This document shows, in pieces, positions 8,977 to 39,765 of a stretch of 64,000 nucleotides of DNA. Source of the stretch: Leptodontidium sp. MPI-SDFR-AT-0119. Lineage: Eukaryota > Ascomycota > Leotiomycetes > Helotiales > Leptodontidiaceae. Below the pieces are notes generated by a model. The model was not told the DNA's origin. It saw only the letters and a list, made by a program, of their open reading frames with translations, and did no database searches. The stretch spans positions 186,001 to 250,000 of the forward strand of contig JAHLEZ010000021.1 in NCBI GenBank assembly GCA_020726505.1. Direction: 5' to 3'. Made by a program: the position numbers and the translations under genes. Every line of letters starts with the position of its first letter. Positions within the stretch are counted from its first letter, which is position 1.

Positions 8977-10889
8977 TTACCCAGCCTCAGTAGACATCGC
9001 GTCAGGTACATGTTTCACAAGCTGATTATTTACCTGGATACTGTTCTCAGGAACCAGAAGTATAGTGTTCGACCCATCCGCAATCGCGGCTTGGAAGCAC
9101 GTTCTTGGGACCAACGGGTTGAGCGAGCTATCAAACGGCCGGATGTGCTTCCTCATGTAATTTTTCGCCACCCGCTCGACTTCGGACGGGTCAGAAGAGT
9201 CCACTAGAAGACTTCGATCGGTCCTCCAAACGTCTCGCTCGTAAATTTTGAACTCAATACGCACCATAGAAGATGGAGGAATTATCTGCAGCTGCCTGTC
9301 CGGATTCTGTTCGGATGGTTGGCCGTGAGCACTCGAATCGACGTCGTCGGTACGAATCAAATCCTGGTAGGAGTTGACGAGCGCTTCCAGGTCAGCCGCA
9401 GGCGAGCTGCTCTGCGGTGGATCCTCTGGTTGTTCAGAGGTGCGAGCGAGCCCATCCGCGATGTTTCTCTCACGATTAACGTGAGTACCTCGCCTTTGAT
9501 TTCTCTGTGTTGGTTGTGAAGCGTCACCCCCCTCTCGTACATTATTGCCGGCTTCCACTGATGCTTGCCTCTCATGCAGTCTATTTCGCTCCCAAAGGTC
9601 TTGCGCCATCCTCTCCTGCGCCATCCTAGCCTCCTCTTGAGGGGTTGGGCGTCCTTGCCCCGATACACTCCTTCCCCCGCCCAAAGCACCCAGCCGCTCC
9701 TGTTGCAGATCTACATGAATTCCTCCGCCTGTATGTGGTGCAGGGTTCGAACGACGTTTTGTAGTAGTGTCGCTTGGTCGACCAAAAAATGTAAAATACA
9801 CAGACCTGCGCACAAAGAACGATGTGACGCTCTCGCCATGCTCGTCTACTTCTGCGTGCAGGTTGGCGATAACAAGGGATTTGGCATCTCGTGCGTGAGC
9901 CTCTTCATCTGGGAACCCACATCGGACCCCTGCAGCGGCAGGATCATCGCTGACGAAGGCCGGACACGACTGCTCCAGCGTGAGGGGTGTGGCAGTTGCA
10001 AACAATCGTATGATCGTATCACGGTCCTCCGGACTAAATGCGGCGAAGATCAGGCCACTGGCCAGCTGGCCGTGTATCTTCGAGATAGTGTACGACTGCC
10101 TGTTTCTATGGTGAGCAAGTCACACCTGCTCGTCAGATAGGAGGCTCACCTCGGGGAAGTTCATACTGATCATTTTGTTCAGTGTGCTTATCCTCATCCC
10201 ACCCCAAAGCCCGGGCAGATCTAGGAGATCATCGAATCCCGTATGGAGCTCTGGGTGTCGAAAGAGCCCGTTCAGACATCGCGTCTCACGTTTCGACAGA
10301 TGACTCCACCACCTCCTTTCCGAATACAAATCTCGCTCTCGTCGGTACTGAGAGATCTTGCAGTAGATCTCGCCAGCAGTTGGCGGCTTCTCGTTCGAGT
10401 ACTCCTCGATCAGGGCGGTCTTGAGTCCATAGTCGGCGTCTGCATGATGGTGTTAGTTCAGGGCAACGTCGACTCTGGTGAATGCACGTACCGGCGAGGT
10501 AGAGATCTACCGTCCACCATCTTTCTCTTGGGGTGAGGATCTCGCGCACGGCCTGAATGCGGTGCTTGGAATCCCGCAGGAAATTTAAGAGTTGGGTGGG
10601 GGCTATCATGATTATTCAGCAGCCTCTCAGCCGAGACGCTAGAGTCGTTCAGCGCCTGAGTAAGTTGAGACTGATCGATCACGGCTGGGATATGATTCCT
10701 CGTCACCCGATCACATTGCCCCTTCTCAAAACACTTCTTCAGTTTCTCGATATTCTTCCGGTCTAGTTCCCAAGGCTCGCCCCGTGGGAAATGTAGTGCC
10801 TCAAGCCTAATGCGGGCCGTGCCTCTATACTTCTCCCGGCCCTCAGTTGCCAGCCTCTCCTCCCGATCCGCGAACCTCGAGTGCGGCAT
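8977..10889 (-). pseudogene. DUF3723 protein, decayed by deletions
   Basis: The minus-strand sequence is a broken relative of the intact DUF3723 gene at 27.7-30.7 kb. The first part (from ATG 10889) matches its N-terminus (YRGTARIRLEALHF). A deletion of roughly 20-25 nt near 10570 removes the conserved ECLHGRHR stretch and shifts the frame to HRIQAVREILTPRERWWTVD. Two introns remain visible: about 10490-10441, and 10150-10100 beginning GTGAGC. The middle section after VVHYLE is missing, and the frame resumes at GQLASGLIFAAFSPEDRD. The C-terminal half (from about 10005) is open to 8977, with the conserved end EVERVAKNYMRK. DUF3723 proteins are a recurrent cargo family of fungal Starship elements, function unknown. 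This copy is very probably not functional. Confidence 0.75.
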
Positions 10890-10924
10890 CTTGTGTATAG
10901 CTGTTCACAACTCGAGATGGTCTA

Positions 10925-11355
10925 ACGTCCCTCCCTACGTGCCGAGAAACCCTACGTGCCGAGAAAAAAATAAGGTACTTCAACTTTATTCATTCTTAAC
11001 TCTATATTAGCTTATTAATTCAGAAAATAAAAAGATTAGTAGCATTACAGAGCTATTTATTATCAATTTGACACCTTCCGAAGAAAATTTTATTATCACA
11101 TCGCCGCCCTTTCGCCTGATTTATAAGAAGCCTCCATTTAGGCTTTAGTACCAGTCCTCTACTACAGCTACACTAGCAAGCTCTTTTTATCCCTAACACG
11201 ACTTAAAAGTTCTTATCTGAGCTTCAGATCCATATTTTTTCATCCGAGTCCCTCATAAGCTTTGTGGCTGCTGTGATACGCAAATAGTTGCAGGCCCGCC
11301 ACGCGGTTCGGTACTTCTGATCGACGGAACTAACGATACTCGGCAGGGGGCTGAC
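10925..11355 (+). repeat. Arm A: left inverted arm of NLR cassette 1
   Basis: This is one of five copies of a ~430-bp repeat (A 10925, B 18409, C 39327, D 46992, E 52300). The outer end reads ACGTCCCTCC and then two tandem copies of CCCTRCGTGCCGAGAAA, preceded by TA. Other shared blocks are AATTTGAC(A/C)CCTT, CATCG(C/T)CGCCCTTTCGCC and, near the inner end, GCGGTTCGGTACTTCTGATC. Arm A faces arm B in inverted orientation. Confidence 0.85.
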
Positions 11356-12090
11356 CCCGCACCTCGCCGCAGAGCCTCGGTAGTTTCACCGCAGTTCCGC
11401 TTAAATAATCAGTGGGGAAACTTGGGGCTTTTGACTTGAGGTGAGGACTTATTCTCAACAATAACAGGTCAGCAGTAGCATCGATCGCAATGCCTTATTC
11501 ACACAGATCATCCTAGTAAGGTGTCAATGTACTTCGTCTGCAGAACCCTAAACTCTATATTCACAGCTTCATCTAGCACGCTGACCTGGATGCTGACAAT
11601 AGAGGCAAGCAACGTCGCGAACGTTGCTGAAGTCCCTACCTTCCTCCCAACCTAAACACTCTCTTCGGCACCAAGTTACCCTACGAGCAGCGATATCGAC
11701 ATGCATTTCGCAGGTCTGTGTAGCGCCCATCGACGGGCATGTATTTGAGAAGACGACTGGCCCAAATGCCAGAAGCAACTGGCTTACGAGTTCAAATTCC
11801 TGGCCGCATCTCTTCGATATGGCGGTGCATAGCGTGCATGTACAGGAACACACATACACACAAACAGAAGTCACGATCTGTCGAGAGGTAGAGAACGGAA
11901 CAAGTGGGAAGATAAAGAATCGAACTTGTAAAATCCAAGACCAGCACAGAATGGTGTCACAGTCGGAACAAGGAAGCTTTGATGAAGTAAATTAGCTAGA
12001 GACATGCTATCTTTGTTCCTCGATTGCAAGATCCTTACATTAGGTGATACTGTAGCAGAAATGAGATGCGATAAATTAACATGCGCCCGC

Positions 12091-13815
12091 TCAATACATC
12101 CGCGCCACTGGGGCCCTCCAAGGCGCAGGCTCCAGTTGTCGTTCTGGCTGTGGTTCTGGCTGTGGTCCTGGCTGTGGTTCTGGCTGTGTTCCTGGCTCTG
12201 CTTCCGGCTCCCGTGCCACTACCGCAGTACTTCTACGCCTGCGGATACGAGTGCCCTTGCCCTTTTTCACCCTCTTCGTACTACTCACCACTTCCACTTC
12301 CACTTCTGACTCTGTCTCTGCCTCACTTGCCTCTAGCTCTGCGTTCTTGCGCTTCCGACCACGTTTTCCCTTGCTTTTGACAGCGTCTTTCGCAGCACGC
12401 TTTGCTCGTGCTTCCTCGATGTCCTCAAAACTCATAACTTTCGCTTTCCCTAGAACTACCGACCTAGTCGATCTGCGAACTTTGGCTTCATTGTTTGCCT
12501 CCGTTAAGAATTGGTTTCGATTGTTGAGGAGGGCACATTCGGCAAACGATACTTGAGCGGCATTTGCAAGCTTCTGTACACGCTTTTGAAGGCGCTGTGT
12601 ACTCGTGGCATCAAGTGTTTGAGTATCCTGTTTGATCTGGTTATATAGCGACATAAGACCCTCAGCTGATACAGGCGTCACAGGTGTTTGTACAGCTTCA
12701 TCTTGTATATAAGCAGCCCCTTCTACTGCATCGGTTTCTGGACTGGTCGGTTGGGTAGGGGGCTTTGGTGTGAGTACTCTGTCCGGGTTATCTGGAAATA
12801 AGCCACATGCAGCCCACGCAGATGTGATGTTTCTCTTCGTGAACGCCTTCTCCCTCGCAAAGCTATACAAGGAGGTGAAATGTTCCTTGCCGACGGTGTT
12901 AGTACCTCCTTGAAACAGCCGTTCCACTCGTTCTCGATAGGCTGCCTTTAAAGGTGCAAAGGGTCCGACATCACAAGGCTGGAGCTTGTGTGAGGTATGA
13001 GAAGGTAGACGACATAAAATGATGTTGTTTTCTAGACAAAATTCCAGGATTTCAAGCGTCTCATGGGTCCCAAAGCCGTCACAAATCAGCACCCGTGGCT
13101 TCTGGTTAGCACGTTCTTTTGTCTGTGGGTCGAATACACGCTTGAGCCACTCAAAGCTGATCTTAGAGTCAGTGTATCCAGATTCGGAGCATGCATAGTG
13201 CCATCCAGGAGTAGGGAACGTAGTCCAGTTGCTACGATGGGTAACAGCTGGCCAGATGATCATTGGCAACAAAGACCTACCGTCTGCACTTATACATTCG
13301 ATGGCAGTCACCATCGTCCGCTTGACACCGGCGCCTCTATAGTCTCGCGGGTCATCCTTACTGATTAGGACTTTGACAGAGCCGAGCATGCACAGCATAA
13401 CTCCCGTCTCGTCCATGTTGTAGACATTCTCTGGCCGAATAGCTGGATCCTGCAATACCTTTCCGATCACATCGAACCAGTGTATAATCTTGTCGTATAT
13501 GTTGTTCTCATGACGTTTCCAGTCTATCGCCCTGACTCTTCGTGATTTGAGTTCCGGGTGGCGCCTCACAAAGCCCTGAGCCCAATTCTTGCCAGGAGGG
13601 TTGACCGGTCTCTCGGTCGTCGAACGTTGGCGGGCAATGACAAAGGCCAGGGAAGGTACGAACTTGATCCGCACAGGGTTTCCGAGGTCAGATATTCCTT
13701 TCAGATACTTTTCGAGAGCTTTCTCTTCGGACGGAGTGAGGTATTGCTGGCTCTGCGCTTTCTGTTCTTTCGAGCGCCGCCCTTGCGCACGATGATGGAG
13801 GGTAGTGAGAGGCAC
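12091..13815 (-). CDS. Pogo/Fot1-type DDE transposase, N-terminus missing
   Basis: A single 574-codon frame encodes a Tc5/CENP-B-type HTH region (KNWAQGFVRRHPELKSRR) followed by a DDE_1 catalytic domain. The acidic residues are visible in VYNMDETGV, LICDGFGTHE and LQPCDVGPF. The last two are spaced D35D, as in Fot1/pogo elements. The C-terminus is basic and then a PEPQ-rich low-complexity tail. The frame begins at a GTG in a peptide (GVPLTTLHHRAQGRRS) that looks like the end of the first pipsqueak HTH. An in-frame TAG lies just upstream (13837-13839), so the first ~30 residues are missing or lie on an exon I could not find. No clean TIRs of its own were identified next to it. It sits upstream of the NLR gene, in a position where NLR paralogues C and D have no such gene. 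Confidence 0.8.
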   Translation of the reverse strand: MPLTTLHHRAQGRRSKEQKAQSQQYLTPSEEKALEKYLKGISDLGNPVRIKFVPSLAFVIARQRSTTERPVNPPGKNWAQGFVRRHPELKSRRVRAIDWKRHENNIYDKIIHWFDVIGKVLQDPAIRPENVYNMDETGVMLCMLGSVKVLISKDDPRDYRGAGVKRTMVTAIECISADGRSLLPMIIWPAVTHRSNWTTFPTPGWHYACSESGYTDSKISFEWLKRVFDPQTKERANQKPRVLICDGFGTHETLEILEFCLENNIILCRLPSHTSHKLQPCDVGPFAPLKAAYRERVERLFQGGTNTVGKEHFTSLYSFAREKAFTKRNITSAWAACGLFPDNPDRVLTPKPPTQPTSPETDAVEGAAYIQDEAVQTPVTPVSAEGLMSLYNQIKQDTQTLDATSTQRLQKRVQKLANAAQVSFAECALLNNRNQFLTEANNEAKVRRSTRSVVLGKAKVMSFEDIEEARAKRAAKDAVKSKGKRGRKRKNAELEASEAETESEVEVEVVSSTKRVKKGKGTRIRRRRSTAVVAREPEAEPGTQPEPQPGPQPEPQPERQLEPAPWRAPVARMY

Positions 13816-14240
13816 TCCACTGCGTTTTGATCTGACCTACCTTCGATCATCCATTAGATGTCGAGTGTTCTAGCCTGAAGTCTTAGACTGGCATTTATCA
13901 AGCTGGTATCAAGATATGGCGAGATGTAGAACGTAACTCACCGGCGGGACTGCGAGGTGAAGCCGTTCCACCATCATCCATCTATCCCATCCCATTCTGG
14001 CATCGGCACCACGACGTCATGCACGACCGTGCCAGTGAAGTCCTTGCAGAAGAGCTTGTGCCGGGTGAGTCTCGAACATACGATGCCAGTCCCCAGATTT
14101 CTTTACCCTCCCTTTCAGCAACGAAAACCTGTTATGATCAATCGAGATTGGCTTCGAATATCTTTGCTACTCATGACCTCTACCATTCCTCCGTTGATCA
14201 TGGGACCGGTCTTGCGCGCTTCCAGTGATGTACGACGATG

Positions 14241-14290
14241 CTATTGCCGCGAGGCTGCCGCCAAGCTGAGTGCGCCAGCCGCAACCTGAG
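14241..14290 (+). promoter_or_regulatory. Conserved 5' leader block of the HET-NLR genes
   Basis: A ~45-nt block with GGCTGCCGCC and GCTGAGTGCGCCAGCC is shared by all four HET-NLR paralogues in the window. It lies about 100-155 nt upstream of each ATG (others near 39855, 47560 and, on the minus strand, 57250-57300). It is not in a conserved open frame, so it is probably 5' UTR or promoter inherited with the gene. Confidence 0.5.
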
Positions 14291-14395
14291 CTGAAGTCTT
14301 CCACCTTTGCATCTGTGTCAACTCGACGGCTTAACTACTACCGAGAACTCTTCCTCCTGCGATCCTCGACTCATCGACTCGAAGCCAGTTGAAAA

Positions 14396-17300
14396 ATGCG
14401 TCTGCTGCAGTGCGACAACGATGGCGACTTCAGCCTGACCGAGTTCGCTGAGAATGACATACCGAAATATGCAATACTTTCACACAGATGGGGAGCGGGG
14501 GAGGTCACATATCACGATCTGTTAGACGGCACAGGCAAGAGCAAGGCTGGCTATGGAAAGATACAGTTCTGCGGAGAACAGGCGAGGCGTGACGGCTTAC
14601 AATACTTCTGGGTGGACACCTGTTGTATCGATAAATCTAATGCCGTGGAGTATCAACACGCGATCAACTCGATGTTTCGCTGGTACCGGGATGCGACCAA
14701 GTGCTACGTTTACCTGCCAGATGTTTCGCGACCTCGCTCTGTTCTGGCCGACAATACCAACGAATCTTGGGAATCGTCATTTCGAAAAAGCGAATGGTTC
14801 AGACGAGGCTGGACTCTACAAGAGCTTATTGCACCGGCATCAGTCGACTTCTTCTGCAAAGATCGGGAGCTATTAGGCAATAAGGTCTCCTTAGAACGGC
14901 ACATCTGCGAAGTAACAGGTATTCCAGCTAGAGCCCTTCGAGGAAGCCGTTTGTCTGACTTCACGGTTGCTGAGCGAATGTCGTGGACAGAATGTCGTGA
15001 GACGACCTATAAAGAAGACAAGGCATATTCACTGCTAGGAATTTTTGACGTTTACATGCCACTCATCTACGGTGAGGGGAAGGACAGGGCGTTGGCGCGA
15101 CTTCGAGAGGAGATTGACAAGGCCTCGAGAGGTATATCTTGCTCTTCTGTCATCAAATGAAAGAAGCTGCTAACTCTATCAGGATCTAACCGCGAGGACT
15201 TCTCAGTCACCTTCAGCCTCTCCGATGCTTTCGACGTCGAACACTTCGTGGCCCGGGAAGATGAGCTCTCGAGAATACACAAGGCACTCAGAGGCGATGG
15301 GTCCCGGCGGGCAGTTGTTCTACACGGTCTAGGCGGAATTGGCAAGACACAACTTAGTATTGCATATATGAAGCGGCATAAGGATGATTACTCGGCAATA
15401 TTCTGGCTCAACATCAAAGACGAGGATTCTGTGAAGCAGAGCTTTGCTAAGCTGGCTAAGCAAATATCAAGAGAACACCCGTCGGCCATCCCGGTTAGTA
15501 GTCAAGAAACGAAGCAAAACCTGGATGAAGTTGTTGAGTCTGTTAAGGCGTGGCTGAGTCTGCCTAACAATACACGATGGCTGATGATCTACGACAACTA
15601 CGATACTCCTAAACTATGTAGTAGGATGGATCCTGCGGCTGTGGATATCAGAAAGTTCCTTCCCGATTCATACCAAGGGTCAGTTATTATTACAACGCGG
15701 TCATCGGAGGTCAGAATTGGTCATCTTATTCAGGTTCGGAAGCTTAGCAATATACGTGATAGCCTTGAGATTTTGTCAACGGTGTCGCGACGACAAGAGC
15801 TGAAAACAGGTGAGACGTTTTAGATTTAACATCCATTATCTAATACTTTAAACCAGATCCCGATGCTGTGAAGCTTGCAGAGGAATTGGATGGCCTTCCC
15901 CTCGCATTGGCTACAGCTGGAGCATATCTTGATCAAACACCAAGGAGTTTCTCAGACTATCTTCGTCTGTACAAGGAGTCATGGGCAAGGCTTAAGGAGA
16001 CAAGCCCTGAGCTAAGCTCGTACGAAGACCGCACCCTTTACTCGACATGGTAAATCTCTTTCGACAATATCAAAAAGCGGAACCCCCTCTCGGCAGATCT
16101 ACTTCGCCTATGGGCGTATTTTGACAATCAGGATCTGTGGTTTGAGCTTCTTCGACATGGCGATTCTGAGGATCCCGAATGGATACGAGAGCTCACTAAA
16201 GACGAGGTAAGCTTTGACGGTGCGGTGCGGGTTTTGAGTAACCATGGGCTAGTGGAGGTAGCAACGTCTTCACAAGAATCGACCGAGTCTAAAGGGTATA
16301 GCATTCATGGATGTGTTCACTCCTGGACCATTCATGCTCTGAACCAAGAATGGGATTACGATTTAGCTAGGCTAGCTGTAAAGTTTGTGGGAGCACATGT
16401 CCCTGGAGAGAAGGATAGTCAGCTATGGATGATGCAACGTCGACTTCTCCAGCATGCAGCGAGATGCTCATATATGTTTTCAAACAGCCTGGTAGTAGAC
16501 GATGAGCTAGCAGATGATTGCCACAACCTAGGATACCTCTACGCCGACCAAGGCAAGCTGGACGAGGCCGAGCAGATGTACCAGCGGGCGCTGCAAGGCT
16601 ACGAGAAGGCATGGGGTCCGGAGCACACGTCGACGCTCTCCACGGTCAACAACCTGGGGAGCCTCTACGCCGGCCAAGGTAAGCTGGTTAAGGCCGAGCA
16701 GATGTACCAGCGGGCGCTCGAAGGCTACGAGAAGGCATGGGATCCGGACCACACGTCGACGCTCGACACGGTCAACAACCTGGCAGCCCTCTACGCCGAC
16801 CAAGGCAAGCTGGTCGAGGCCGAGCGCATGTACCAGCGGGCGCTCGAAGGCTACGAGAAGGCATGGGGTCCGGAGCACACGTCGACGCTCAGGACGGTCA
16901 ACAACCTAGGGAACCTCTACGCCAACCAAGGCAAGCTGGTCGAAGCCGAGCGGATGTACCAGCGGGCGCTGCAAGGCAAGGAGAAGGCATGGGGTCCGGA
17001 CCACACGTCGACGCTCGACACGGTTAACAACCTAGGTCTCCTCTACGCCAACCAAGGCAAGCTGGTCGAGGCCGAGCAGATGTACCAGCGGGCGCTCGAA
17101 GGCAAGGAGAAGGCATGGGGTCCGGAGCACACGTCGACGCTCGACACGGTCAACAACCTGGCAGCCCTCTACGCCAACCAAGGCAAGCTAGTCGAGGCCG
17201 AGCGGATGTACCAGCGGGCGCTGCAAGGCAAGGAGAAGGCATGGGGTCCGGACCACACGTCGACGCTCGACACGGTCAACAACCTAGGGAACCTCTACGC

Positions 17301-18267
17301 CAACCAAGGTAAGCTGGTCGAGGCCGAGCAGATGTACCAGCGGGCGCTCGAAGGCTACGAGAAGGCATGGGGTCCGGAGCACACGTCGACGCTCTCCACG
17401 GTCAACAACCTGGGGAGCCTCTACGCCGGCCAAGGTAAGCTGGTTAAGGCCGAGCAGATGTACCAGCGGGCGCTCGAAGGCTACGAGAAGGCATGGGATC
17501 CGGACCACACGTCGACGCTCGACACGGTCAACAACCTGGCAGCCCTCTACGCCAACCAAGGCAAGCTGGTCGAGGCCGAGCGCATGTACCAGCGGGCGCT
17601 CGAAGGCTACGAGAAGGCATGGGGTCCGGAGCACACGTCGACGCTCAGGACGGTCAACAACCTGGGTCTCCTCTACGCCGACCAAGGTAAGCTGGTCCAG
17701 GCCGAGCGCATGTTCCAGCGGGCACTACAAAGCTACGAAAAGGCGTCCGGCCCTAAGCATACAACAACACTCAATGCGGTCAACTGCTTGGGTGTTATCA
17801 TCAAGCGACGGTGTTATGCGGCTACTAAGCTCTCAGCCAGTATCATTGTGCTTATAAACGTCAAGCAATTAGCCGGTCTTTGTATCAAGTTTCAATCCGC
17901 AAGACGTGTGCTATTGGGTAGTATTGGGCGAGTGTACGCCTGGATCGGAGACGATATAAAGTCTACAGCTGCCTTTGCGCATCAATTGGCTCTAACTTCC
18001 CCTGCTTACAATGCCGATTGCGATAGTTGTGATACTAATCTAACTGTCAATACCAGTCGACTCGTTTGTAGGGTATGTGAAGAGAGTGATCTATGTAGAA
18101 GCTGTTTTGATAAATTAGAATGCAATGGACTCGGAGAGGTTTCTTCTTCATGTCAAGGCCACAAGTTCCTCGATTTGGGCGGTGTTGGTATAGGAAAATC
18201 TCCTTTAACCAATGATGCGACATATCGCGCATCAGTCGAGGAGTGGTTGAAGGGTATAGCACTATAG
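14396..18267 (+). pseudogene. HET-NB-ARC-TPR-ZZ NLR with one internal stop
   Basis: Exons 14396-15131, 15183-15809 and 15857-18267 join in frame (1257 codons before the final stop). Residues 1-245 are a HET domain (AILSHRWG, YFWVDTCCIDKS, RGWTLQELIAP). An NB-ARC follows: GLGGIGKTQ P-loop near 294, LMIYDNYD near 378, GLPLAL near 467. Ten 42-aa kinesin-light-chain-type TPRs span ~683-1102. A ZZ-type zinc finger (CDSCD, CRVCEESDLCRSC) lies at ~1175-1210. NLRs of this design sense non-self and trigger incompatibility-type cell death through HET. A TAA at 16051-16053 interrupts the frame between GLPL and the TPRs. Everything after it is intact, so the lesion is recent and probably a CAA-to-TAA change. 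No GT-AG intron removes it without a new stop. Without readthrough the product would be a HET-NB-ARC fragment. Confidence 0.82.
16540..17799 (+). repeat. Ten near-identical 126-bp TPR-coding repeats
   Basis: Each unit encodes 42 residues of the form YANQGKLVEAEQMYQRALEG plus a linker ending TVNNLGNL. Units 7-9 almost copy units 1-3, so the array grew in part by duplication of a three-unit block. The last unit is diverged (ASGPKHTTTLNAVN), typical of array edges. Confidence 0.9.
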
Positions 18268-18408
18268 AGAGTAACCTTGCAAGCACGCAAATCCTGCATG
18301 GCTGAACAGGACGGTGAATATGGAAACAGAAGTGCTGGAAGGGCTTCATTTCGCCATTCCGTCGAACAGGCCCAGCGACTTTACTAATCAAAGCTTCTGT
18401 CCCCACCA

Positions 18409-18840
18409 GGTGTCCCTTCTAGCCGAGAATCGCTAGTTCCGTCGATCGGACGTACCGAACCGCGTGGCGGGCCTGCAATTATTGCACGCCACAACAGCCA
18501 CAAAGCTTATAAGGGTCTCGGACAAAAAAATATGGATCTAGATCTTAGATAAGAAGTTTTACGACATGTAAGGGACAATAAGAGCTTGCTAGGGTAGCTG
18601 TGGTTGAGGGCTCGGACTAAGGCCTGAATAGTGGCTTTATATTAATCAGGCGAAAGGGCGACGATCCGAATGTAAAATTTTATTCGGAAGGGGTCAAATT
18701 GCTATTAAATAGCTATATAATGCTTCTAATATTTTATTTGTGTAGACTTACAAGCTGGTGTGGAGTTGAGAATGCGTAAAGTCAAGGTACCTGATGATTT
18801 TCTCGGCACGCAGGGTTTCTCGGCACGCAGGGAGGGACGT
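18409..18840 (-). repeat. Arm B: right inverted arm of NLR cassette 1
   Basis: This is the reverse complement of arms A and C. Read on the minus strand it starts with ACGTCCCTCC and two CCCTGCGTGCCGAGAAA motifs at 18840, next to TA (18841-18842), and ends near TTCTCGGCTAGAAGGG at about 18409. It lies about 140 bp beyond the stop of the NLR gene. Confidence 0.85.
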
Positions 18841-18889
18841 TAGTTTTGATCGTTAAAGTGAATTCTAGGTAAGGTAGGGTAGGTACAGT

Positions 18890-19798: not shown

Positions 19799-21521
19799 AT
19801 GGGTTCACAGACCCGACCCCGTACGATTGTCAATATCCTTGAGGCACAAGCCGGGGCGACGTCTCACCCAGCTCCCGAGAGTTCTGACAAACAGCCTAGA
19901 CGGTCCAACAACTCTAGCTTCAGCACAGCCTCAGAGAGTCCTACGAGCAAGCCGAGCAAGAAAAGACGTCGATCTCCAGAGGATAACGAGCTGCCTACAT
20001 CTAATGTTGAGTTAGGTAATCCCAAGCAAGCTGGGATCGGTGGACAGACGACCTGGAAAACGCGAAATGAGTCGCCGTGGGAGAGCTATGAAAAGATTCT
20101 GGAACTCAACCTCGACGGTGCCGTTACCGTAGCACAACTGAGGGCTCCGCACGCTGGACTGGTTGCCATCAGAGTATTTTCCTCTGCGGATGCAGAGAAG
20201 GCGCTCTACAGGCACCAACATGTCAAGCACGATCACATAGTTTCCGTTCTTGATGCCTTCACAACGGAGGCATCTCTCTACATCGTCCTTGAGCACCTGC
20301 CGATCTCTCTTGAGCAGATCGTGGAAGGTGCCAAGTATCCTACTGAGTTGCAGCTAGCAGCTATTCTCAAACAGGTAAGAGATGGCTACCACTGGCATAG
20401 AACGCTTGCTGACTCGGAGCACCCAAGGTCCTCAGTGGTTTGGTTTATCTCGAAGGTGAGGGATTTGAACATGGATCGCTCAAGTGCTCGTGTATTCTTC
20501 TCAACACCCAGGGCAATATCAAAATTGGTTAGTTCCACGATGGTTCCGTGGGATTCTCTATTGACCAGTACAGCCAACCAGCAATGCTTTGAAAGCGTAC
20601 GAGGAGGTGGGGAGCCTCGGGATGTGAGGGCGCTCAGTCCAATCATGATGGAACTAATGCAGGAATATATCAAAGACGACGGTGCAGTCGGCGTGGACAA
20701 TTTGGTTCGTTGGCCCTCTGATTGCGACGCCGTCACTTTCCTTTCACACACGACATCGGCCATGTCTGCACGCGAATTACAAAATGTACGTGGTTCACTT
20801 CTCTGAATGATGAGATGCTGACATTTCTCAGCACGCGTTGATGATACGTCGTACCCGGAAAGAAGATCTGATGGGCTTGATATTTTTGCTCCTCCTTCGT
20901 TGTGATCTGGCTGGTCTAGGAGCTCATTCAGATACAGATATTGGATTGGATCCCATTCCTGGGTCTTTAGTTGGCCCTTGTCCTCCTTTCTCGCATCCTC
21001 TTGACTGGGTCGTCATTTCTGGCACAATCGTGCTGGTTGAGCAGCCTCCAATCTTGGCTGCCACACCTGCTCCACTACCCGTTTTGTGCTGCCCTTCTAT
21101 ATGCTCCCAGGTTGACATCTTTTCGCCTTGCCTATGCCAAAACAACCTTTGGTGGGCTCATCCACTTTCTCGTCTCTTCCTCCACTTCTTTCCTCCCTTA
21201 CTTTCTGACTCTTCACCTATCTTCACTCCCTTCCAGAGATTCACTCCTTCTCGAACCATCTCTCCCTTCACATCCATTACTCTATCTTCTCATAGAAGCC
21301 GTTTACATATATGCGATATGTGTCAGCGGCATCTTTGCTGCGTTCTTCCTGATCACCTTTCGTTCACGTTTTGTGCAATTCGTCGAATATGTCAATCTCT
21401 TGATGTTCAAATACGTGATAATCCCGCAGATCCTCCGCCGTCATTCATCATTTGGCCCATGGACTCTGGCGGGCATCATCGTAAACACCACGTACATCTC
21501 TGCGAACGTCTACTGTCTTGA
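19799..21521 (+). CDS. Pseudokinase (HGSLxCSxILL family), 4 exons, 3' end unclear
   Basis: Exons 19799-20374, 20428-20527 and 20574-20785 are well supported, with the fourth starting at 20832. Exon 1 (576 nt) and exon 2 (100 nt) have the same lengths as in the gene at 25.9 kb. The protein has a basic Ser-rich N-terminus with an NLS-like KPSKKRRRSP, then a kinase fold. The β3 Lys is replaced (VAIRVF), the catalytic loop reads FEHGSLKCSCILL, and DFG is absent after IKIG. It is therefore a predicted pseudokinase. Exon 4 begins with the family tail (HALMIRRTRKEDLMGLI), but no stop follows where relatives stop. The frame stays open to 21521 and overlaps the ferric reductase region, so the native end was probably near 20920 and the stop has been lost. 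It lies directly upstream of the ferric reductase, as its paralogue at 37.6 kb also does. Confidence 0.68.
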
Positions 21522-23089
21522 GTTCTGGAAGATGACGGCTACAGAGGTTGGCCTTCGCGCCGCGAACCTCGCTTTGATCAACATGATGCCGCTCTATCTT
21601 GGGCCCCACCTTAGTTTCCTTGCAGATCTCTTTGGTATGTCCCTAAAGTCATTCCGAATGGTCCATCGTTCGGCAGGTATAGTATCGTTCGTCCTCGTGC
21701 TTCTCCACATCTTCGCCGTGATCGCTGGTGGCATCGGAGACTTCTCTTTAAGGGTGCCCGAGAATCTCTATGGAGTAGTTGTTAGTCTCCCGATTCCTTC
21801 ACGATCACAATGCTAACCTCGAATACCCTGCAGGGCGGGTCGGCTTTGCCTCTCTTGATCCTCCTCTCGATCCCAACCCTCCGCAAACCGTCGTACGAGC
21901 TTTTCCTCCGCATACATCAAGCCTTAGCGGTGCTGTTGACGTGCGCCACGATACGACATCTCTCGTCGATATCTCACTTCCGATGGCTCTACGTTTACAT
22001 CTTTGTGGGAATAGTCTCTGCGTTGCTTGTCTTTCAATGTGGCTGCGTGGTCTTTCGGAATCAGACCTGGGGACGCGAGTTTGCTCGAGCCTACATCACT
22101 CGCTTTAATGACACAGTCCGGGTCCGGATCACGGTGTCGCGGCCAGTCGAGGTCAAAGCAGGTCAGTATATCAACTTGTGGATCCCCTCCATCAGCTGGT
22201 ATATCTTCCAGAGCCATCCCTTTGTGGTGACCAACTGGGCCGAGGGCAAGCAAGGCACGTTGGAACTCTTCATCCAGCCACGGGGAGGCTTGACCCGCGA
22301 GCTCTTTAGTCACGGAACGCTTGATACGCGTGACGCCGTACCTCGCCGAGCGTTTTTTAGCGGACCGCACGGCATCAGCATACCAGTCGTGGAGTATGAG
22401 ACCATTCTCATGGTCGCGACGGGCTTCGGTATTGCTGCGCAGCTACCATACCTCCGTAAGCTCATCCACGGCTATCAGACCTGCAAAACTCGCACGCGCC
22501 GAGTTCATTTGGTGTGGCAGCTTCAGAGCCTCGGTAAACTCCTTCCGATGTTGTATGACTACATACAGCTAACAGCCGCAGACATTGGCCTGGCTGCGGA
22601 GTCACTGTTGAATGATGCCTTAGATGAAGATACGCTAGACAACAGCTATGTAAGTAATGCAGTGCATCGTGTCGCCGTTTCAACTCATCTTGGGATAGAT
22701 CCTCTGTATCTCGATATACGTTGAATCAGAAGGTGTTGCCAAGGTGCCCTTCGGCCAGCGTGCAACGATCTATCCAGGGACGGCTGACCTTGAAGGCATC
22801 CTTCAAGATGAGGTAACTGGGAAGTATATCCAAAGGCTGCAGACAGTATCAGAAGAGAGGGGCAAGATACTTATGATGGGTAGAAAACCATCCTGTACTC
22901 TCAGAGCTGCAAAGGTACTGATGCATAGTAGTGTCCGGAAGTGGCGCGCTTAGGGACCATCTGCGAGCTCTTGTCCGTCCACACTTGAATGATGGAGTAC
23001 GACTGCAGGAATTAGAATTTCAACCGAGTAACGATAGCACTCGTGGTTGGAATTTCTGTTGGTTGAGACTTAAGCCAAGACCTACATAG
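21292..23089 (+). CDS. Ferric reductase (FRE/NOX-type), start codon apparently ATA
   Basis: Exons 21292-21780, 21834-22533, 22582-22649, 22699-22879 and 22929-23089 join in frame and match the paralogue at 32.5-34.3 kb exon by exon. The family moves electrons from NADPH through FAD and two hemes across the plasma membrane to reduce iron or copper. Visible features: an N-terminal hydrophobic helix region, heme His pairs (MVHRSAG with LLHIF; RIHQAL with IRH), FAD motif HPFVVTNW, nucleotide site GPHGISIP plus ATGFGIAAQLPYL, and a C-terminal VSGSGALRDHL. The homologue starts with ATG; here the aligned codon is ATA (21292-21294). No in-frame ATG lies between there and about residue 40, and a CT-rich leader sits immediately upstream as in the paralogue. 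The start is probably lost (G to A), unless an undetected upstream exon uses the nearby TCATAG acceptor. Confidence 0.78.
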
Positions 23090-27671: not shown

Positions 27672-30600
27672 TCACTCGATCCTAGATTCCGTCTGCAACT
27701 CCGCTTCAGACAAAAGCTGAGAAATAGAAGCCTCCAGCTCTTCGTTTATGTGAATGTCCCTTTCCGGGATTAGAAGTAATATGTGAGCCCGATTGGCGAT
27801 CGCCGCTTCGTAACACACTTGTGGGGTCAGAATATTCAAGTCGGTATCATAAACCCTTATTCGATCCGCTTTCCTCATATACTTCATGGCTATTCGCTCA
27901 ACTTCGGATGGATCAGACGAATCAACGTGAAGGGTTTGGGCGGTCCTCCAAACGCCTCGTTCCCGAATCTTGAACGTGATCCAGGAGTCCGACTTCTCCT
28001 GAGCTAGCGGAGTTGAATCCTGCAAAAGTGAGCCTGCCGAAATAGATAATCGGGAGTAGGATCTTACCTGGTGCTTTCTAGCTCTTGGTGTGGTACGATG
28101 CTGTTGAGCTGGTGCAGGATGTTCGTCTGAACCTATTGACTTCTCCCGTTCTAACCTCTCTTGGTTTCGCCTACCTTGTCGCTGTCTCGCCTCTTTCTGT
28201 AAATCTAGTTCCGGTTCTTGGCCTGATTGCAAATTCAAGCCTGTAGTCCCCTGGCCCCCATCATCACCTGTCTGAGCTTGTTGACGTTGATGTGCTTGGC
28301 GTAATACAGCGGCAACTCTCTCCATATCAAATTGCGTGCGACGCTTTCGCTCTTTCTCGAGTTGTTCTTGCTCCAGCCTCTCTTGTTGCAGCCTCTCTTC
28401 CTCCTGCCTCTCTTGGTCCAATCTCTCTTGTTCCAGTCTCTCTTCCTCCTGCCTCTCCTGTTCTAGTCGCACTTGCTCCAATCGCTCTTGCTCCAGTCTC
28501 TCCTGTTCCAGTCTCTCCTGTTCTAGTCGCTCTTGCTCCAATCGCTCTTGCTCCAGTCTCTCCTGTTCCAGTCTCTCCTGTTCTAGTCGCTCTTGCTCCA
28601 ATCGCTCTTGCTCCAGTCTCTCCTGTTCCAGTCTCTCCTGTTCTAGTCGCTCTTGCTCCAGTCGCTCCTGTTCCAGTCTCTCCTGTTCTAGTCGCTCTTG
28701 CTCCAGTCGCTCTTGTTCCAGTCTCAATTCCTCCTGCGTCTCTTGGTCCAGTCTCTCTTGCTCTAGTCTCTGACGCTCCTGGTCTTCCAACCAGTCTTGC
28801 ATACTCTCATCTATACTTCCCTCTGCTCGCTCCACAGCCCCTTCTTCCGTGATGTTCGAACGTGCGGGTGGCTCACCCCTATCGTCTCTCTGCTGGTACA
28901 GTGTCAATATACCATCGTAATTCTCCATCACGTGGTCTGGCGATCGCTGAGACTGGTTCGTGTTGTCATCTAGTGAGTAATTGGATTCGTCTATTCCTCT
29001 GCCTTGCGGCGAACCGCCTACGCTCTGAGGGAGGTCATCTGGCTGGCCGATGTCATGTGTCGCCGACGGTTTACCAAAGAAAGCGAAGTAGACTGATTTC
29101 CGGACAAAGAACGATGTGACGTTTTTCCCTTGCTCTTGTCGTCCATCATGTAGATGGTTAACGAATAAAAACTGTCGGTCCTCTTCGAATTCGCGAGTGC
29201 TCTGCTTCCCACACCTTTTCTTAATGTGAACGCCTTTCCCAGACGTGACAAGATTGGGTCTCGACTGCAGGTGTTCTGTTGGCGCATTTCCACGCCCTGG
29301 ATACTGCTGCAAGTCGGTGATCTGGTCTGACTCGAACCCTAATTTGGCTGCGAAATCAGCAAAATTGCGAAGTGTAGCCGGGTCCGCTTTGGTTGGAGGT
29401 TTCATCTGGGGGTCTTCTTTCTGGGGCTTCTTGGGCATATCGGGCCAATGTCGCATCGCAAAGGCGTATATCTGTCGATACCCAAGGTCGACTTGGTCTT
29501 CGGGGGTGCCCTTCCTATATATGAATTCATCCTCGGTGACTTGCAACTTCACTTGCCCTGACTCCTGGTTCACACCAGTAAACCTTCGTTTCATTGCGGT
29601 TGAAAGACTCTGCCCGGGGGACAACGTCGTGAGCCTTTTCACGCAGTTCACGCAGTTTTCCAGGTAGATGACGTCCCTGAAGAACGTAAGAATTGATGGG
29701 ATCAAGCCCTCGATCATTCTTAGTTTGTTCCATATGTCCTCCCGCTCACTTTCGTCGAAGGCGCTAAAGATCTCACCGGCTCGAAGTTGGCTCCGCAGTA
29801 GCTTGGCATCCGTCGTTGACGCCCGTGGCGCTCTCATCTGCAAGGCCTGTACCGTAGCTGTGTCGATTCTTGACATTGCGTCCTTGTTGCCTCCAACCAG
29901 TCCGGACCAGACTCTCTTGATGTGACGGAGGTAATGTAGCATCTCCTGTTCCCACAGCGTTAGCAGATCGCCAATCACGTCAGAATCACCCACCTCATCA
30001 CATCTCAACGGGAAGTGCTTATGAATCGTGGTGAGCTTCATATCATCCCACAGTCCGGGGATAACTAGCAAAGCGTCAAAGGCGTCTGTGAGATCCTCAT
30101 GCTTGTAAAGTGTTTTGAGACTTTTTGGTCGGATCCCCTGCAGGCGGGATTTCCACCGTAACTTGGAGTCAAGGTTCCTCTCAGCATCATACTGGCGCAG
30201 CTTGCGGTAGATCTCGCCGTCCGTGGGCTTCTGCTCGTTGGAATATTCCTCGACGAGCCATGATCTAAGATTGGTGTTAAGTTTTGGAAGGTAAAGATCG
30301 ACGGTCCACCACCTGTCCGTTGGCAAGAGGAACTCTCGCGCAGCTTCAATCCTGTGTCGGCCATGAAGGCATTCAAGGTGACAGCTGGTCGGAAATTTTA
30401 GCATCGGATAGCCGCCTAGGTGACCCGCTAACAGCTGTTCTGTGGAGACACCAGAATGGCGCATCGCATTGGCTAGTTGCTGCTGACTAATTAAGGCTGG
30501 CACATGATTCCGAACTGGCAACCGTTGACAGTCTTCATTGCGAAAGCATTCCGTGAGAAACTCCACGTGATCTAGATCGAGTTCTCGTGGCTGGTCCCGC

Positions 30601-30689
30601 CCAAATTGGAGCACGTCGAGGCTGATGCGCGCCGTTCCTTGGTACATCAACCTTCTTTCTGCCTCGAGGAGGGAGTCTTGTCGTTGCAT
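27672..30689 (-). CDS. DUF3723 protein with long Glu/Arg coiled coil
   Basis: An open frame of 1005 codons runs from ATG 30689. Residues ~15-380 match the fungal DUF3723 family as I recall it: [69 protein letters not shown] middle part ends in [18 protein letters not shown]. Residues ~620-800 are a run of EQERL units (coiled coil). The C-terminal ~85 residues form a conserved block ([26 protein letters not shown]) shared with the decayed copy at 9 kb. At least two in-frame introns may lie inside: near 29990-29943 (GTGGGT, CTAAC, CAG), and about 28070-28023 (GTAAGA to TTGCAG). The mature protein may thus be 30-40 aa shorter. DUF3723 genes are frequent Starship cargo. The function is unknown. 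Confidence 0.83.
28340..28790 (-). repeat. 15-bp tandem repeats coding EQERL, with 60-bp higher order
   Basis: The 15-bp unit TCTTGCTCCAGTCGC and variants are arranged in larger blocks, several of about 60 bp being near-identical between 28480 and 28690. In frame they give repeated LEQER pentads inside the DUF3723 protein. The array is likely length-polymorphic. Confidence 0.85.
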
Positions 30690-32534
30690 GTCGACGAATC
30701 AACTAGGGTAGAAAATGGAATAGAAAAAGGAGTAGAAGAAGAAGAAAAGGAGTAGAAGAAGAAAAAAAAGGAGTAGAAGAAGAAAAAAAAGGAGAAGAAG
30801 AAGAAGTCGAAAGCCAAGTGGCCATGGAATCTGGGCCTTCTTATACCGCTCAGAGTGGTCATCCTAAAGAAGACCCTCTGTCAGAGTCATCAGAACAGAA
30901 TGCTACTTTCTTCTCCGCTCCTCCTCCACTCTCCAAGCTTAATCAGGTGCACGCCGTTAAACCTAGGTGCATGTGTCAGCTGGGAGACCTCTAATCGGAG
31001 AACATGGCATGTAGGAGACGGAAGTAATTAGGAGCAACCTTGGCGGAGCGAATAGCATCGAGGAGCAATCAGCGAGGAGCCGTGGACAATTCGGAGAGAG
31101 GAGCGAGGAGCGTGTTGCACTGAGGAGTGGCTGGCTCCTCGATGCCGTCTCCTGCATGCTGCTGGCTCCGCGTAGTGTGGGGTGGGGAGCCATTTTCTCC
31201 TTGGGACTGGGCCCTGCATATTTTCGTTTAGAGGCACGTGTAATGTTCAGGCCGGATCTTGAGCCTGACTCTAAATAGTGAATTGTTTTGTTGAAGAATT
31301 GGTACGATACTCATTTCGCAGCCAAGGCCACTGTGGTCAAATCTTGGGTTCATTCACATTGGTCATGAGTTGCCAATACTAATTATTTTGAGAGATCACG
31401 TTTGACTTGAGATGCGACCGCTAGTCCCTTTGCATCTAGTACACTCGCAGTCTGATCTTCACTTGAATAACAACTCGAACAATCAAGTTGGAATTTTTCG
31501 CGGGGATGGCTGAGACCCTGAAGGTTCGTGCTGGAACCGAGCATATGCCAAAATAAGCATAAGTCAAGCGACAATTTAGGGGTAGAATTTTGAGTTTTGG
31601 GGATGGTCTGTTAAGTGGAGCAGCACACCTCCATTACGTGGCTTGTAAGAACCAGCCCAGTTCTCTCTGTTCAGGGTCTCACGTATCCCCTCGACTGAAA
31701 GGCTCACAAGTTGTAATTGAGTAGAGTAGGAATTTGGCGCCCTGTGGCATGTTCGAAGTGAGGCTGGCTCCAGCATCTGTGAGATTCGTCAAGGTCCCCC
31801 AACACGAGCTTCTTCAGGACTCGAGCTGGTGCATCGTACCTGACGGAATTAATGACGTCATCGGACCTTCACAGACGCAGCCTTACCCGTCCGACGCTAC
31901 TGCCAAGACAACAGTTCCTGAATTTTACCCTTTATTCCTGCCAACCACCCCCCTATCTACGCCAGCTTGTACCTCCCAGCTTCCTCCTCCATAAAACATG
32001 CACTACTCGATTACTGTTATGCATTTGTTTGTGCAGCCTGTGCATCTAGTCGTGCATCCGGAAATGGTCGACTAAAGGCTGAGTGAGGGTGGAGTGGCCC
32101 ATCGAGATGATCTAACGGGGCCAAATTCTGCTGCCCTCCATCAGGGAGTCATCGCTCGAATTATTCGAGATGATCCGAGGGAGCCAGATTCAGCTGCCTC
32201 TATCTCAGGCTGTTCTCGATCAAAATGCCCCTACCATAGAACTCGTCCAGGTGAGATCATTCACAACCCACGCATCTGAATGATAAAACATTCAGCCATT
32301 AGACAACTGAATCTTGCACCATTCTGCCCCATGCTGTCCTGTTCCGGGCTCGCTACCGACGTCTGATACTGATGCCATATTTAGAAGTGAGATACAATAC
32401 TACTACTTCACGAAGTATGGCTCACTTTGGATTTATAATATTTAAAATTGTACTCTATCTAAATAAATATCGGCGGGCGGAGCCTGAAGCATAACATAAT
32501 TTCTGCTGTCTAGCTACCCTATCTACCTCACTGA
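30690..32534. other. Intergenic; purine-rich leader and a dispersed repeat
   Basis: 30715-30810 is a GAAGAAGA/GGAGTAG purine tract in the 5' region of the DUF3723 gene. 31040-31170 is rich in GAGGAGC. 31470-31640 is a diverged copy of 57725-57880. Shared blocks include GGGGATG-CTGAGACCC, AATAAGCATAA and AGGGGTAGAATTT. Its short frames are unsupported. No gene is recognised. Confidence 0.5.
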
Positions 32535-34319
32535 CTACGAAGGTTCGTAATCAAGTTCGAAGAAGCTCACTCCATCTGTCAGATGGCCTCGCACGACGCT
32601 TCGTAATTCATCTCGGATCTTGTCGTTGCCCGACACTTTCACTTATTAGCACGCAATAGCCATAACGATAAAATATAAAACTCACCCATGACAAGTAATT
32701 GGCCATCTCTCCCAGTATGCCCACCTGTTTTGAGCTCTCCCTCCACGCGGGCCCTTGAAGCCCAGTCGATATCACCGACTAGCTTCTTCTCAATGTGGTC
32801 TCCTGCAACTTCTGCCTGAAGGATCTGCCTCAAAGGGGCCTTGCCCGGATAGACCTTTGCACGTTTCCCGAAGGATATCTCGCCAATATCGCTTGATTCG
32901 CAGTAGATTGAGATGGCTAGAATCTGTTTTCTGCTATTAGTAAGACGAAGATCATGGCTCTCGTAGTACGTACCCATCCATCGTCCAGCGTATCCTCGTT
33001 TAAAGCACCGTTCAGGAGCGGCTGGGCCGCGATGGTGACGTCTGGCTCTGTCAGATATCCATCCTAGAGGTGAGGGTCATAACTTACCAAGGTCCCGAAC
33101 CTGCCAGACGAGATGGATTCGACGAGCACGAACTTCACGGGCATTGTAGCCGTGAATAAGCTGTTTGAGATATGGCAGATGTGCTGCGACGCCAAAGCCA
33201 CTAGCCACCATAAGAATGTTCTCGCTGTCGTCCATGGGAATGCTCTTCCCGTGAGGTCCAGTGAACAGCACCCGGGGGTTCATGGCATGCCCACTCTTAG
33301 CATAGTGCAAGAGTTCTCGGGTCAGTCCTCGTCGAGGCTCGATAAAGAGATCTAGATGGCCCTGCGGCTGCTCTGCCCATGAGATCACCACAAATGGGTG
33401 ACTCTCCAAGAAGGACCAGAAACTGACAGAAGGTATCCACATCCAGAGATTAATAGCCTGCCCGGCCTTGACTTCGAGTGACTTCTGAAGCTGGATGCGA
33501 ACCCTAAGCGCGCCGTGTTCGTGGGTAATGTGGGCTCGGGCGCCACCGTAACGAAAGAGACCGTTGCGGCGTACGACCACGCAGCCCTGGCCAATGCACA
33601 TGAACAGAAACAGACCTGCCGAGATGTATAGGTAGACGCGGGGGAAGGCCTTATCAGAGGGCAGGTGTCGCCAGATAGAGTAAGCAGCGAGCGCGGCCAA
33701 GGCTTGATGGGTGCGAAGGAAGAGTTCGTAGGAAGGTCTGCGGAAGAACGACACCGAGAGTAGAATAATGGATCCTAGTGACGATGCTCCCTATATCGTG
33801 TCAGCGGAGCTGTGTAGCCAGGAGTCTACTTACAATGACCGCGAACTTGTTCCGGGTCAGGTCTAAAGGAAAGGAGGGTTGCGATGCTATCATGACGAGT
33901 AAGTGGAAGATGCTGAGCAGAACCGCCATCACGCCCGCCGAGCGATGGATCTGATGACACGTGCTGAGGGTCACACCTAGCAGATCTGCGAGGGTGCTGA
34001 GGTGAGGGACTGCAAGTAGTGGGATAAGGTTGATTATCGCGAGCGTCCCGGCTCGAATTCCTGCTCGTGAGACGGTTGTATTCCAGAATTTAAGGCAACA
34101 TATATTCCCTGCGATGTAGATCAGCTGAATCAAAATGCCGGCTCGACTCCACGGGCCCAGAAGCCTGTGTCGATGGACGGTGTAGCGGTAGGTGAGGTGC
34201 TTTGAGAATAGAGGAGAAAGGTACTTAATGAGGCGGATAATCATGGGAAGACTATTGATGAGCAGTAGGAGCAAGAAGCTACCACCCAGGGCAATAGCAT
34301 AGATATGGCTAGTATCCAT
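32535..34319 (-). CDS. Ferric reductase (FRE/NOX-type), intact, 5 exons
   Basis: Exons 34319-33834, 33790-33088, 33047-32974, 32923-32686 and 32641-32535 give 535 aa with all junctions in frame. The N-terminal ~260 residues hold several hydrophobic helices (ALGGSFLLLLLINSLPMII) and the heme-His region (HQIHRSAG, SIFHLLVMI; RTHQALAAL). FAD motif HPFVVISW sits near residue 295. Nucleotide-binding motifs GPHGKSIP and MVASGFGVAAHLPYL follow. The end LRSVVRGHLTDGVSFFELDY is the usual FRE C-terminus. It should reduce ferric or cupric ions, or act as an NADPH oxidase-like enzyme, at the plasma membrane. The β-face helices are fewer than in full Fre proteins, but this is common in short fungal forms. 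It is the intact counterpart of the 21.3-kb gene. A pseudokinase gene lies upstream in the same orientation. Confidence 0.86.
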
Positions 34320-38559: not shown

Positions 38560-39030
38560 GTTGTAGAGACGTCGGAGAAAGTGAACTTGACCTGACGTTA
38601 AATGCGTCAGAGGCGTCGAATCAACTCCGCAGATCTCCAAACTCTAGCAATGCAGTATTTGGATATTTTTAAGTCTATCTAGAATCTGCGACGCGAATCT
38701 GGAGTTGTGGTGGAGGTTGGCAAATGTTTGTTGTTCATGAGGCAAAAAAGCAACGAGGCTGGAGCGAAAGCTCATGAGTGGGGCTGCATGCACATGCGCG
38801 CTAGTGACACTAGCTCCCGCTTCTGGCTGGAAGGCGTTCCTGGTGCAATCCAAAAACGTCGTTGTCTGACTTGAGGATCTCATCAACGCGCAGCGAGAAA
38901 CTAAGCCGCCATATGATGGGGTGAAGTTCAAGAGGAGGATTGGTACAGTCGCTTGCAAAATCGGCTTCGCGTTGTCTAGCTTAACAATAATATGAGCACA
39001 GGACCACCTACGCCATTTTTGGCCGACGTC
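38560..39030. repeat. Two dispersed duplicates (partners at 160-570 and 57605-57690)
   Basis: 38560-38860 is an inverted copy of 160-570. About 38935-39030 (minus) repeats 57605-57690 and part of 60600-60640. The shared core is GAAGCCGATTTTGCAAGC, flanked by CCAAAAATGGC and GGTGGTCC. These may be ends of an unrecognised transposon family. Confidence 0.55.
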
Positions 39031-39326
39031 GGAACGGGCCGCCCCCGTTTGTCGCACGACATCTTGGGAAATGATTGGGGAGACGAAGTGACCGAGGAGA
39101 CAATACTTCCTTGAACCCTCGCATCTCATACAATACACTGTACAGTACGAACCCGTAATCAAAGTCCTCTCACAATACTTCATGGAAGAGATGTACTTTG
39201 TAGAGCGAGCAATAGGTTGAACGGCCAATTTATTCTACCCTACATGTCGCGTGAGATGTGTTGATTACATGGGCGATATCACTAGCACTGCACATGATCA
39301 ATAGAAGATTCTAGAAGTGAGGAGTA

Positions 39327-39765
39327 ACGTCCCTCCCTGCGTGCCGAGAAACCCTGCGTGCCGAGAAAAACCACAGGTACTTTGACTTTAAGCATCTCAA
39401 ACTCCACACCAGCTTATGAGTCTCTAAAAATAGAACATCAGTAGCATTCCACGGCTATTTATTAGCAATTTGACCCCTTTCGAAGAAATTTTTGGATTCG
39501 CATCGTCGCCCTTTCGCATGATTTATGAGAAGCCTCCATTTAGGCTTTATACGAGTTCTCTGCCATAGTTATACTAGCGGGCTCCTATTATCCCTTACAC
39601 ATCTTAAAAGTTCTTATCTGAGCTTCAGATGGTTTTTTTTTTGGTCCGAGACACTGATAAGCTTTATAGCTGCTGTGGCGTGCAAACAGTTGCAAGGCCG
39701 CCACGCGGTTCGGTACTTCTGATCGACGGAACTAACGATTCTCGGCTAGAAGGGAGGGACCCCGC
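39327..39765 (+). repeat. Arm C: inverted-arm copy upstream of a truncated NLR
   Basis: Complete outer end: TA (39325-39326), ACGTCCCTCC and two CCCTGCGTGCCGAGAAA motifs. The inner end reads TTCTCGGCTAGAAGGG. It is followed by a run of about 26 C residues (39768-39793). No opposing arm is found downstream. Confidence 0.85.

Follow-up and report, generated by a model that had tools for sequence, protein, structure and literature searches.

Pogo elements of the Tc1/mariner group use TA as their target, and Pack-MULEs are non-autonomous DNA transposons that contain captured host genes. In the accessible text of PMC4188875, Sclerotinia pogo elements are described with terminal inverted repeats (TIRs), a DDE transposase with a helix-turn-helix (HTH) and short non-autonomous relatives, and five elements of 1.4–2.0 kb are tabulated, with TIRs of apparently 44–70 bp. 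The locus described here was taken from a 64,000-nt stretch of Leptodontidium sp. MPI-SDFR-AT-0119 (hereafter the window; C14:186001–250000 of a 77-Mb, 69-contig genome, C and L being local names for contigs and fetched loci, respectively). Positions 10925–18840 of the window, termed W1 (7,916 bp), probably represent a decayed copy from a family of inverted-repeat elements that are flanked by TA and dispersed in the genome; many members hold a HET-type NOD-like receptor (NLR) gene, and the family was most likely moved by the pogo-type transposase that only some of them encode.

Like the fungal pogo elements, the W1 family has TIRs, a DDE transposase and non-autonomous relatives, whereas its arms of ~430 bp enclose 5–13 kb and an NLR gene is common cargo; its features (TA, TIRs and a DDE_1 domain) are those of the Tc1/mariner-pogo group. 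With Pack-type elements it shares transposon ends enclosing host-type genes and the absence of a transposase from several members, but instead of varied gene fragments it holds, time and again, a multi-domain NLR, in many cases with a HET exon that is open and has a low dN/dS. Fungal NLRs, including the Podospora-type HET-NACHT-WD40 proteins whose domain architecture recurs here, are treated in PMC4986451, the accessible text of which gives internally conserved repeats as prone to repeat-induced point mutation (RIP) and has no word starting with 'transpos'; in the present genome, by contrast, such genes sit between transposon arms. Starships, according to the available parts of PMC12134995 and PMC9594970, have a tyrosine-recombinase captain and reach ~700 kb; they are, like the W1 family, mobile fungal elements able to carry NLR/HET genes, but the W1 family has a DDE-type transposase and a TA site, and its main cargo genes are NLRs, one or two per element. 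At het-v of Podospora anserina, Tc1/mariner-like and other transposons replace allorecognition genes in one strain, and the transposon cluster is not needed for the phenotype (PMC9262711, accessible part), whereas in the W1 family the element itself encloses the receptor gene. ToxhAT (PMC12506042 and PMC6737239, both available in part) is a transposon carrying a non-transposition gene, a single effector, as opposed to receptors in many copies. The literature yielded no TIR element that carries NLRs in this way, a weak negative with most subscription papers and bioRxiv outside the coverage. Across Sordariales, NLR number correlates only weakly with repeat content and RIP (PMC12258605, accessible part).

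Structure and state of W1

The arms of W1 form an inverted pair at 10922–11275 and 18490–18843 (354 nt, 81% complementary) and a second pair at 11283–11344 and 18422–18483 (92%). Aligned as a single pair, the left arm (5′ relative to the NLR; 10925–11344, +) and the right, 3′ arm (18422–18840, −) are 81.7% identical across 420 nt. ACGTCCCTCC is exact at both tips (10925–10934, +; 18831–18840, −); this 10-mer by itself is weak, with 8 window matches at up to one mismatch versus 3.57 expected. The 17-mer CCCTRCGTGCCGAGAAA is exact in two copies per end, starting at 10933 and 10950 on the left (10933–10966) and at 18799 and 18816 on the right, where motifs and tip together occupy 18799–18840; its 8 matches in the window are every one exact and all at four tips, versus 0.25 expected at up to three mismatches. 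Both tips directly adjoin TA, at 10923–10924 and 18841–18842. Inverted arms with transposon-like tips abutting TA had been reported in the initial annotation of the locus and were confirmed.

A pogo-type transposase had also been noted between the arms and was identified as a DDE_1 open reading frame (ORF) of 581 aa at 12091–13836 (−), with a Pfam match (PF03184, E 1.9e-31) and three acidic motifs. Its start is lost: a 255-bp segment at 13835–14089 is inverted relative to the sister copies L039 and L040, so that the start codon and initial residues, located by comparing reading frames, stand on the opposite strand, and the first remaining methionine falls within the first catalytic motif. The HTH profile PF03221 scored 21.1 bits in W1, where the start is inverted away, and 21.4 bits in L039, both below the cut-off of 22.2.

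The NLR gene (14396–18267, +) was delimited from Pfam matches, with exon joins from comparison and by eye. It comprises a HET exon from 14396 to ~15130, NB-ARC within 15161–15823 and a TPR/C-terminal piece at 16054–18267, the last containing an array of highly alike 126-nt (42-aa) TPR units (16523–17830, +, by repeat detection). An in-frame TAA occupies 16051–16053, where the sister copies L039 and L069 have Q. The gene had been called HET-NB-ARC-TPR-ZZ; HET, NB-ARC and TPR matches were recovered on the plus strand, and ZZ was absent among the best 25 of 27 Pfam matches for the C-terminal piece, where a cysteine-rich stretch was seen by eye only. Rfam gave no match at gathering scores. W1 is thus a decayed copy in which neither gene is whole, its transposase start lost to the inversion and its NLR interrupted by the TAA.

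Dispersed arms and empty sites

The genome searches scored subsets of their candidates (left arm, 40 of 62; transposase, 75 of 351; HET, 150 of 367; joined flanks, 40 of 122; DUF3435, 100 of 144); the resulting counts are therefore minima, and a missing match is a soft negative. Fragments appear as separate rows for transposase and HET, and regions were mostly fetched with HET or transposase positions known beforehand, which biases fractions of content. At least 42 places in the genome matched the W1 left arm (itself counted), 38 at 77–89% identity. The 25-nt tip occurred 91 times in the genome at up to three mismatches, and a reversed-pattern control 0 times; TA adjoins all of the best 30 of these 91 tips, TA making up 4.7% of window dinucleotides. 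The family pattern is ACGTCCNTCCCTRCGTGCCGARAAA followed by two tandem motifs, next to TA, and the three-mismatch class takes in subfamilies such as ACGTCCATCCCTGCGTGCCGGAAAA. Arm identity was 79.7–82.3% in five of six pairs, with 91.5% over 71 nt in the sixth, L044. A DDE_1 transposase is present in W1, L039 and L040, and a fragment in L069. In an arm tree of 25 rows (5′ arms of W2b and C37_264 dropped), four 5′ arms cluster, several 3′ arms stand apart and the 5′ arm of W1 was placed among 3′ arms; nothing firm was drawn from it. The viral contigs contained 0 exact tips and no relatives of the transposase or HET, and a transposase search of a phage collection, poorly suited to it, was empty. 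Tips with a CAGTTGRRGATYRGAAGAA-like sequence replacing the second motif were seen at C17:22386, C14:185646, L045, L046 2848 and L104 507, and the tips at C8:116810 and C25:347406, which continue CTGTTGG, are perhaps a further group.

For the empty-site search, 200 nt from each flank of six tip pairs were joined without the element and the genome was searched. The joined flanks matched across the junction for four of the six elements (W2, L041, L042 and L043). Twelve junction copies were fetched; 11 reach the junction, all with a single TA, at 76–94% identity, and the twelfth, L057, starts beyond it. Since W2, L041 and L042 contain NLRs and have single-TA empty sites, arms and NLR lie within one inserted unit, and relatives of W1 have moved as a unit. 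The initial annotation had proposed a TA-inserting Tc1/mariner-like element carrying an NLR, to be checked against arms at other insertions with different contents and against empty sites with one TA. The arms are dispersed, their interiors differ, and relatives of W1 have single-TA empty sites in all 11 junction-reaching copies, all of which supports the proposal.

The second member in the window, W2 (39327–52737, 13,411 bp, arms 81.8% identical), has TA at both ends and paralogous single-TA empty sites. Its left flank (39017–39326) matches C3:62785–63092 and its right flank (52738–52947) C3:63091–63310 of the same uninterrupted copy, the insertion point being a paralogue of C3:62785–63310. 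Its cargo consists of the remains of a first NLR, namely a HET exon with one stop (39990–40727, +) followed by an NB-ARC fragment, and a second, HET-NACHT-WD40 NLR (47521–52085, +), with an inner 5′ arm at 46974–47360 that is without its first ~104 nt. W2 was inserted beside an older HET-NACHT-WD40 NLR (52865–57308, −), just past its 3′ end, and illustrates how nesting may build NLR clusters. A further HET-domain ORF, for which Pfam gives HET only, lies beside the NLR cluster at 57976–59322 (+).

Cargo and layout of the family

NLRs of the family have an N-terminal HET, a central NB-ARC or NACHT and C-terminal repeats. In addition to the transposase and HET-NB-ARC-TPR gene of W1, HET-NACHT-WD40 cargo was found in L041 (5,378 bp), L042 (5,255 bp) and L044 (5,762 bp), and C3:61611–68389 (6,779 bp, TA at each end) holds HET, WD40 and a weak NACHT match. 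L043 (2,366 bp) contains a Poa1p-like ORF at 1034–1543 (−; C14:162234–162743), an ADP-ribose 1″-phosphate phosphatase match at E 2.2e-7 (phmmer against PDB sequences) with no Pfam family; a second genome copy of this ORF was not found, the sole copy seen being inside the TA-flanked element. In the manner of Pack-type elements, L041, L042, L043 and L044 have common ends around non-transposon genes and no transposase match. L059 (C56, 3,499 bp) has dissimilar arms at its two ends and a 331-aa ORF without a Pfam family, and gave no HET or transposase match. Members seen at one end only include L060 and L061 with NB-ARC NLRs and L062 and L063 with NACHT NLRs. By a loose coordinate rule a HET exon lies inside 25 of 42 arm-bearing ends, and one is present in 9 of the 14 neighbouring pairs of inward tips up to 16 kb apart (by eye, from coordinates; some pairs span two elements). 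Many of the 150 HET rows have no detected tip nearby.

Eighteen HET exons have an inward-facing end within 4.5 kb upstream. Thirteen start 636–955 bp inside (W2b measured from a truncated arm), the three transposase-bearing ones 3,426–3,468 bp inside (C37 from a truncated arm), and the remaining two 2,106 and 4,064 bp inside. An inward end lies less than 2.5 kb upstream of 14/150 HET exons, versus 0.24 expected. Of 27 transposase matches with at least 45% identity, 8 have a HET exon no more than 2.5 kb away, versus 0 of 48 below 45%; five of the eight are divergent at 372–662 bp, one is divergent at 2,039 bp and two are tandem. Chance association of NLRs with arms was ruled out because of the tip–HET counts with their control and the transposase–HET counts. 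Over its full length the L041 5′ region aligns with C2_1600, C23 (of NB-ARC type), C37_256 and C14_169; against W2a, C34 and C14_184 it aligned in two blocks, with shorter spacers in those three.

Sister element and a second fungus

In the sister element L065 (5,209 bp), inverted arms enclose a HET-WD40 gene and, oriented divergently to it, a transposase (55% identical); the NACHT query gave no match there. Its ends are AGAGACGTCCC and AGAGAGGTCCC, with TA beside each, and its arm had three genome matches: itself, its partner and one on C20. This L065-type end (C20:403543–403656) is ~3.2 kb upstream of another HET exon (C20:399822–400499).

Exact tips were found in two contigs of the metagenome-assembled genome record CPC1, filed as a deltaproteobacterium. 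HET and pogo transposase matches there (L045, L046 and other contigs) suggest fungal contamination. Two inward tip pairs in this second genome, 180–181 bp apart (L045 1349–1529; C96:93614–93793), resemble miniature inverted-repeat transposable elements.

In this apparent second fungus, L104 has arm matches and a W1-like NLR ~1 kb from a tip, with 74–78% identity to W1 in HET, 68–72% in NB-ARC and 86% in the next piece; a short element seems to sit in the outer arm, and its own tip was therefore inferred. L103 203–7147 in the second genome (6,945 bp, TA-flanked, 44-bp inverted ends 97.7% identical) carries a PCA1-like heavy-metal P-type ATPase, and the tip family may thus move metal-tolerance genes. 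In L102, another TA-flanked stretch (7,603 bp), the remnant of a transposase is accompanied by two long ORFs that match no Pfam family. Tips at up to one mismatch numbered 16 in the second genome versus 5 for the reversed pattern, so single tips there are weak evidence. The diverged sister element and the second fungus show the same layout.

Alternative explanations

Several observations weigh against reading W1 as a member of a family that moves its NLRs as TA-inserted units. Its own transposase is without a start and its NLR is interrupted. The near-identical transposase copy in L039 is without the first ~115 nt of the left arm, and for the other such copy, L040/L068, a right tip was not found. 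Among the best 40 of 122 candidates, W1 and L044 gave no empty site, only the right flank of W1 matched elsewhere, and the empty sites obtained are paralogues within one genome that belong to members other than W1. Three of the 25 ends with a HET exon inside have an intervening end (C69:1596659 and both ends of L043, an element without HET), which leaves 22/42 by hand count and 20 with none, and the opposite-orientation control for tip–HET neighbours gave 2. Arm and HET distances were uncorrelated (Mantel r −0.25, p 0.94, n 13), in a set in which the truncated arms of W2b and C37_264 were placed by assumed offsets, inflating their distances, and from which L044, with its diverged arm, was omitted. 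Simple co-inheritance of arms and NLR is unsupported by this test, and the NLR was therefore not simply inherited with the arms.

These differing histories of arms and HET exons would suit a scheme in which short arm-only elements first inserted at TA and NLRs came into their interiors, or took the place of these, at a later time through exchange between ends (recombination or gene conversion), as would the NLR-free short stretches that tips also bound (180–181 bp in the second genome; L043 at 2.4 kb). We consider it unlikely, however, as four members located elsewhere align with the L041 5′ region along its whole length and transposase and HET adjoin in copies at 45–100% transposase identity, which together point to an old composite. 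Nor is it probable that the transposase is a nested pogo unit that does not serve the arms. It is missing in L041, L042, L043 and L044, and in L041-type members the arms and the post-transposase sequence nearly abut; yet it occupies the same place and spacing in three copies, this transposase clade and not others adjoins HET exons, the TA-flanked sister L065 included, and in W1, L039 and L040 the transposase module has no inverted pair around it. Segmental duplication of NLR genes plus flanking repeats would fit the clustering of several copies on C14, and NLR families do expand by duplication, but in other copies the two flanks of four elements run together without a break, with a single TA precisely at the join, and on these single-TA junctions the explanation was rejected as highly improbable.

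The NLRs might also be cargo of giant Starships, the TA-flanked arms being incidental small transposons inside. A three-piece DUF3435 match, its pieces having long open frames, is found at C14:275163–276485, ~25 kb right of the window and the nearest one listed on this contig, and the window contains DUF3723 (8977–10119, 27672–30698) and ferric-reductase genes (pieces at 20971–22724 and 33077–33790), prevalent or notable Starship cargo according to the accessible text of PMC12134995. The single-TA empty sites, however, bracket precisely the tip-to-tip stretch with the NLR inside; among the best 100 of 144 candidates, no PF11917 (DUF3435) match, the mark of a captain, lies inside W1, and members occur on C2, C3 and C37, for which no DUF3435 match is listed. 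Judged by the captain, W1 is not a Starship, and Starship cargo is an improbable account of the NLRs. The two kinds of element are compatible, and the window may be a Starship housing NLR elements. For the TA-inserting inverted-repeat family itself, the association of the pogo transposase with HET exons points to that enzyme as the probable mover.

Exchange, constraint and decay

L040 and W1 are 88.5% identical over 2.9 kb of arm and transposase, whereas their HET proteins are ~60% identical; among those compared, the nearest to the L040 HET were L041 (DNA distance 0.18) and C14_169 (0.19). Between C45 and W1, in turn, HET differs by 3% and the arms by 25%. These two comparisons and the lack of correlation between arm and HET distances suggest that arms have exchanged their NLR cassettes, though the same picture would result from gene conversion among NLRs.

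Nine of 14 HET exons are stop-free (one of the nine, C2_1600, partial), and HET exon dN/dS had a median of 0.23 and a maximum of 0.45 (51 of 91 pairs, with dS below 1.2). On these low ratios and open exons, the HET exons are estimated to have evolved mostly under constraint. The RIP index was 0.92, RIP-like, in the C69 copy L066 and −0.24 in W1. L066 (C69:926101–936000), with a transposase and HET-WD40, is heavily RIP-like, with a GC of 0.39 and many TAG/TAA.

Discussion

In the proposed mechanism, the transposase would bind the tips and act in cis as well as in trans to move members, recombination among them would link one arm/transposase backbone with different NLR cassettes, nested members would build up NLR clusters, and RIP would decay copies later. 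The predicted NLRs borne by the elements may have a role in allorecognition and would then function in non-self recognition. The family has likely spread and reshuffled predicted NLR receptors around the genome. More tentatively, and with somewhat less than even confidence, it could be a pogo-derived lineage with NLRs as standard cargo, a mobile generator of receptor repertoires that jumps, nests, swaps cassettes and is trimmed by RIP.

The question addressed is how fungal NLR sets expand and vary. Through its whole NLR genes, the variety of receptor types that the same arms enclose and its TA footprints, the family offers a concrete, testable path to NLR gain, loss and clustering that is separate from Starships, and its tips also carry other host-type genes, Poa1-like in this genome and a PCA1-like metal P-type ATPase in the second fungus. 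If the more tentative reading is true, fungal non-self recognition genes would expand and diversify through transposition.

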